Positions 42,912-42,995 of a DNA stretch of 42,995 bases are shown here, piece after piece. Location of the stretch: NCBI GenBank assembly GCA_017559825.1, contig JAFYQR010000059.1, positions 1 through 42,995 of the forward strand. The letters run 5' to 3'. A program made the position numbers and the translations under genes. The notes below the pieces were generated by a model. It saw only the letters and a program-made list of their open reading frames with translations, did no database searches and was not told the DNA's origin. Numbering within the stretch: the first letter of the stretch is position 1; each line of letters begins with the position of its first letter. This stretch comes from Thermoguttaceae bacterium. GTDB lineage: Bacteria > Planctomycetota > Planctomycetia > Pirellulales > Thermoguttaceae.

Positions 42912-42995
42912 ATGCCCCGTCGCGACGACGTAAAGAAAGTTCTTATTATCGGTTCCGGCCCTATCGTCATCGGTCAAGCGTGAGAGTTCGACTAC
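42912..42995 (+). CDS. carB: Carbamoyl-phosphate synthase large subunit, 5' end, interrupted by an in-frame UGA
   Basis: Only 28 codons are in the window. AAGGAG (42898-42903) precedes ATG 42912 by 8 nt. The product begins [14 protein letters not shown] and continues SGPIVIGQA, then codon 24 is TGA, then EFDY. In the CarB family this position is cysteine (GQACEFDYSG). UGA differs from the Cys codons UGC/UGU in one base. UGA is a true stop for other genes here (for example those ending at 19195, 20574, 28042 and 28570), so reassignment is unlikely. The rest of the gene lies outside the window. It may be a sequencing error near a contig end, a nonsense mutation or, less likely, selenocysteine. 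Confidence 0.85.

Follow-up and report, generated by a model that had tools for sequence, protein, structure and literature searches.

The stretch of DNA analysed here (the window, 42,995 nucleotides) is a complete contig, C32 (G000:C32:1-42995), of the draft genome G000, which comprises 3.68 Mb in 240 contigs, is 91% complete and appears to be a metagenome bin. At the end of the contig lies the start of carB, and 13-15 bases from that end is a TGA that is in frame with carB and stands at the conserved cysteine of the CarB motif IGQACEFDY. The features of this region are as follows.

42740 to 42767, forward strand: match to a sigma-70-like promoter, TTGACG-16-TATAAT, preceding carB (consensus match only)
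42898 to 42903, forward strand: Shine-Dalgarno-like AAGGAG, with the carB ATG at 42912
42912 to 42995, forward strand: 5' end of carB (carbamoyl-phosphate synthase large subunit), truncated by the contig end, with the rest in G000:C159
42960 to 42995, forward strand: overlap with the start of C159, 36 bases, 33/36 identical, with mismatches at 42983 (A/C), 42984 (G/T) and 42995 (C/A)
42981 to 42983, forward strand: disputed TGA codon; the same codon is TGC in C159

The letters at 42981-42983 are as an earlier note had described them, with an in-frame UGA replacing the conserved cysteine codon of CarB. The translation of 42912-42995 has 27 protein letters, and in profile searches the 23 residues preceding the TGA match the start of CarB (NF003671, E 6e-8; TIGR01369, E 1e-5). 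Both the promoter and the Shine-Dalgarno site that the same note had assigned to the gene were found, although the promoter is a consensus match alone, of which 0.4 would be expected by chance in the searched region. The AAGGAGACGCTAAGATG block around the Shine-Dalgarno site is also present in a contig of a same-genus genome (G017:C11). TGA terminates 6 of the 25 longer, plausible open reading frames in the window, which bears out the claim that at least six other genes here end in UGA, and TGA is therefore a normal stop here.

Searching G000 with the end of the window recovered a second contig, C159, which begins with a match of 35-36 bases to window positions 42960-42995. Positions 1-27 of the TIGR01369 profile fall on C32 and positions 16-1049 on C159, and the two contigs therefore bear the two parts of a single carB. 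The earlier note had proposed checking whether the frame continues past the edge, and it does: C159 carries carB on, has TGC at the disputed codon and, from codon 13 onward, downstream of the overlap, keeps an open frame across more than 1,000 codons. Against the CarB models (NF003671/TIGR01369) the C159 part reaches 1422 bits with NF003671, where the cut-off is 599, and 1295 bits where the cut-off is 1027, a full-length match above the curated cut-off to which C32 adds profile positions 1-27. The cysteine expected in IGQA-C-EFDY (alanine in a paralogue) is provided by the TGC of C159, C32 alone having TGA. The same note had named reads with TGC or TGT at this codon as what would count against a genuine UGA; the TGC found here comes from an overlapping contig instead of reads and serves that purpose in spirit.

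Over the five codons in question C32 reads TGA-GAG-TTC-GAC-TAC and C159 reads TGC-TAG-TTC-GAC-TAA. Each contig end has a stop where the other shows the expected sense codon, and all three stop codons, TGA, TAG and TAA, occur within this stretch; the TAG and TAA of C159 stand one and four codons past the disputed codon, where C32 has GAG and TAC. Neither end is trustworthy at the overlap, but combined codon by codon the two yield the family sequence CEFDY. The three differences all belong to the C>A/G>T class and all create stops, which is mildly striking. Only 4 of the 45 possible changes in the five codons give a stop, or about 7e-4 for three out of three, but within the C>A/G>T class (3/8 changes give a stop) the chance is only about 0.05; both figures are post hoc and concern three bases at contig ends. 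When the starts of 120 other G000 contigs were examined, further inexact overlaps appeared between C43 and C118 (138 bases, 7 mismatches, 95%) and between C6 and C69 (92 bases, 1 mismatch), and C109 and C112 were seen to start with nearly identical 150 bases. These ends point to mixed strains in the assembly and indicate that disagreeing contig ends are a property of the assembly and not specific to carB.

The residue was compared in relatives, as the earlier note had advised, across 36 loci of carB in related genomes plus 80 named genome records, in which the site was readable 111 times. It is cysteine in 103 (55 TGC, 48 TGT), alanine in 8 and a stop in none. G017, a genome of the same genus, has TGC at the site: its contig stops directly behind ...GGT CAA GCG TGC, and its upstream region is 79% identical to that of the window over the match. 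Among named records the closest, at 76% identity, is a MAG of Thermoguttaceae from goat ileum, which suggests that the window belongs to gut Thermoguttaceae. The eight alanine readings come from a second carB copy of this genus: several same-genus genomes (L024, L025, L027-L029, L031-L033) have a second full-length carB with alanine for the conserved cysteine (IGQAAEFDYAG) and VEFDYST in place of IEFDYCC. This second, alanine-type copy was not found in G000.

The carB gene is broken in the same short stretch, equivalent to window positions 42973-42995, in four congeneric genomes (G000, G009, G015 and G017).

G000:C32/C159, G015:C207/C14, G017:C11/C113 and G009:C62 (loci L073-L076, L277): carB breaks

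In window-equivalent positions, the G015 contig ends at 42972 and resumes at 42986 (a gap of 13 bases), the G017 contig ends at 42983 and resumes at 42994 (a gap of 10 bases) and the G009 contig starts at 42988, while G010, a congener with 94% identity in carB, is unbroken at this site. Several ideas about the break were considered and rejected. A repeat common to co-occurring congeners does not account for it, given that longer identical runs, of 80-110 bases, are shared elsewhere in the gene. A DNA hairpin is not indicated, folding at the break site being no better than that of shuffles (z 0.5). An inserted element was sought by pattern searches with both flanks, which turned up no further contig flanked by carB in any of the four genomes; one pattern match, G009:C486, is not carB. 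A break hot spot across phyla was suggested by loci L251, L262, L264 and L267, which seemed to start at query residue 4, but on reading the contig starts they begin elsewhere. The recurrent break is a curiosity of assembly at this site and lends no support to the TGA being real. That it reflects a real, population-variable insertion or hypervariable sequence that assemblers fail to resolve, with the odd stops as a by-product, is very improbable.

The earlier note had offered three explanations for the TGA, namely a base error at the edge, a nonsense mutation and recoding as selenocysteine, and had suggested looking for selA, selB, selC and selD and for a SECIS-like hairpin downstream. To recoding we attach a negligible probability. 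In its favour, the UGA stands exactly at a cysteine codon, the genome encodes a SelA-like protein and one match to the tRNA-Sec model RF01852 lies just above the cut-off. Against it, every match to the selenocysteine machinery in G000 except the weak SelA-like protein proved to be another gene, and the machinery was rejected. No SelB was found in this 91% complete genome (the best match, 170 bits against a cut-off of 242, is EF-Tu), nor was SelD (the best match, 25 bits against 125, is PurM). No tRNA-Sec (selC) was found in G000 either: the RF01852 match on C175 is a tRNA-Ser(UGA) according to ARAGORN (L044, G000:C175:10208-10292; 48.5 against the Rfam gathering cut-off of 47), a false positive of the model, and the lesser matches that were checked are tRNA-Ser(GCU) and tRNA-Leu. 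The tRNA-Ser(GCU) is present in two copies about 0.5 kb apart (L045 1499-2116, G000:C171). The SelA-like protein is the following.

G000:C90:19504-20817 (L043 1450-2850), reverse strand: SelA-like protein of divergent sequence, 133 bits (curated cut-off 268)

The SelA motif is SGDKLLGGPQAG. By eye, the C90 protein carries CDGAQLVGGPSCG at the position of SGDKLLGGPQAG, and the PLP lysine of the GDKLLGGPQ motif, the catalytic lysine, appears to be lost and replaced by glutamine; the protein may have the SelA fold but serve a different function. Downstream of the disputed codon, RNA folding of the following 76 nucleotides was no better than that of shuffles (z -0.88), bSECIS elements having no strict consensus, and Rfam models gave no match as far as the contig end. 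A selenoprotein gene has an in-frame UGA in an open frame with no other stops; here C159 has TGC at the codon, and the TAG and TAA in the overlap are inexplicable by recoding. UGA occurs in no relative at this site, and in the literature searched we found no paper joining carbamoyl phosphate synthase with selenocysteine, UGA and selenoproteome. As G000 is incomplete, none of the absences (SelB, SelD, tRNA-Sec) is absolute when taken singly, but three independent ones combined with the TGC of C159 suffice against recoding.

A real nonsense allele present in part of a mixed-strain population, the part sampled by C32, with TGC in the other strains, would fit with the inexact contig-end overlaps of G000 that resemble strain variants, such as C43/C118. 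However, C159 would then have to represent another allele that had been broken independently, by two different nonsense changes within these five codons. All three changes lie in the last 36 bases of contigs and the other approximately 1,000 codons of carB are intact, and this reading is very improbable. A mobile element or intron that interrupts carB, with contigs ending at it as a repeated sequence, draws on the break shared by the four congeners. We give it hardly any credence, given that no contig enters foreign sequence at the site, the G000 ends overlap across it, those of G015 and G017 nearly abut and the flank searches yielded no further carB-flanked contig. With a contig edge, an overlap with mismatches, an open frame beyond it and cysteine or alanine in every relative, it is very likely that the TGA reflects base errors, or noise from a mixture of strains, where the ragged ends of adjoining contigs meet and that this carB is ordinary. 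Among the three explanations offered, it is thus the edge error that the TGC of C159, and its TAG and TAA where C32 has GAG and TAC, support. The gene would be split over C32 (codons 1-28) and C159 (the remainder). The three disagreements in their 36-base overlap would leave one false stop on C32 (TGA) and two on C159 (TAG and TAA), each at a codon that is normal on the other contig. The A in place of C at 42983 would then be a wrong or minority base among the final 13 bases of a metagenome contig, and we infer that the mismatches are read-end sequencing or assembly errors and not rare alleles of other strains. Most likely the gene reads IGQACEFDYSG and encodes a normal CarB.

The TGA is almost certainly not a new selenoprotein but an assembly or sequencing error, given that it lies 13 bases from the end of a fragment and the continuing fragment has a cysteine codon. 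An in-frame stop at a contig end should be compared with the other contigs of the same assembly before recoding is inferred; here, that check eliminates an essential enzyme as a candidate selenoprotein. Compared with bacterial selenoproteins showing a Cys/UGA correspondence, the locus is alike in having UGA at the cysteine position and differs in that no SelB, SelD or tRNA-Sec was found, the overlapping contig has TGC and TAG and TAA stand alongside. With contig-end errors or strain noise in metagenome-assembled genomes it shares the short inexact end overlap, the terminal mismatches, the conflicting stops and the intact gene beyond, although it differs in that three congeners break carB at the same place. 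Compared with CarB itself (NF003671/TIGR01369), the N-terminal motif, the length and the single open frame past the edge are alike (1422 against 599 bits), and the locus differs solely in the false stops that the two contigs carry at their ends.
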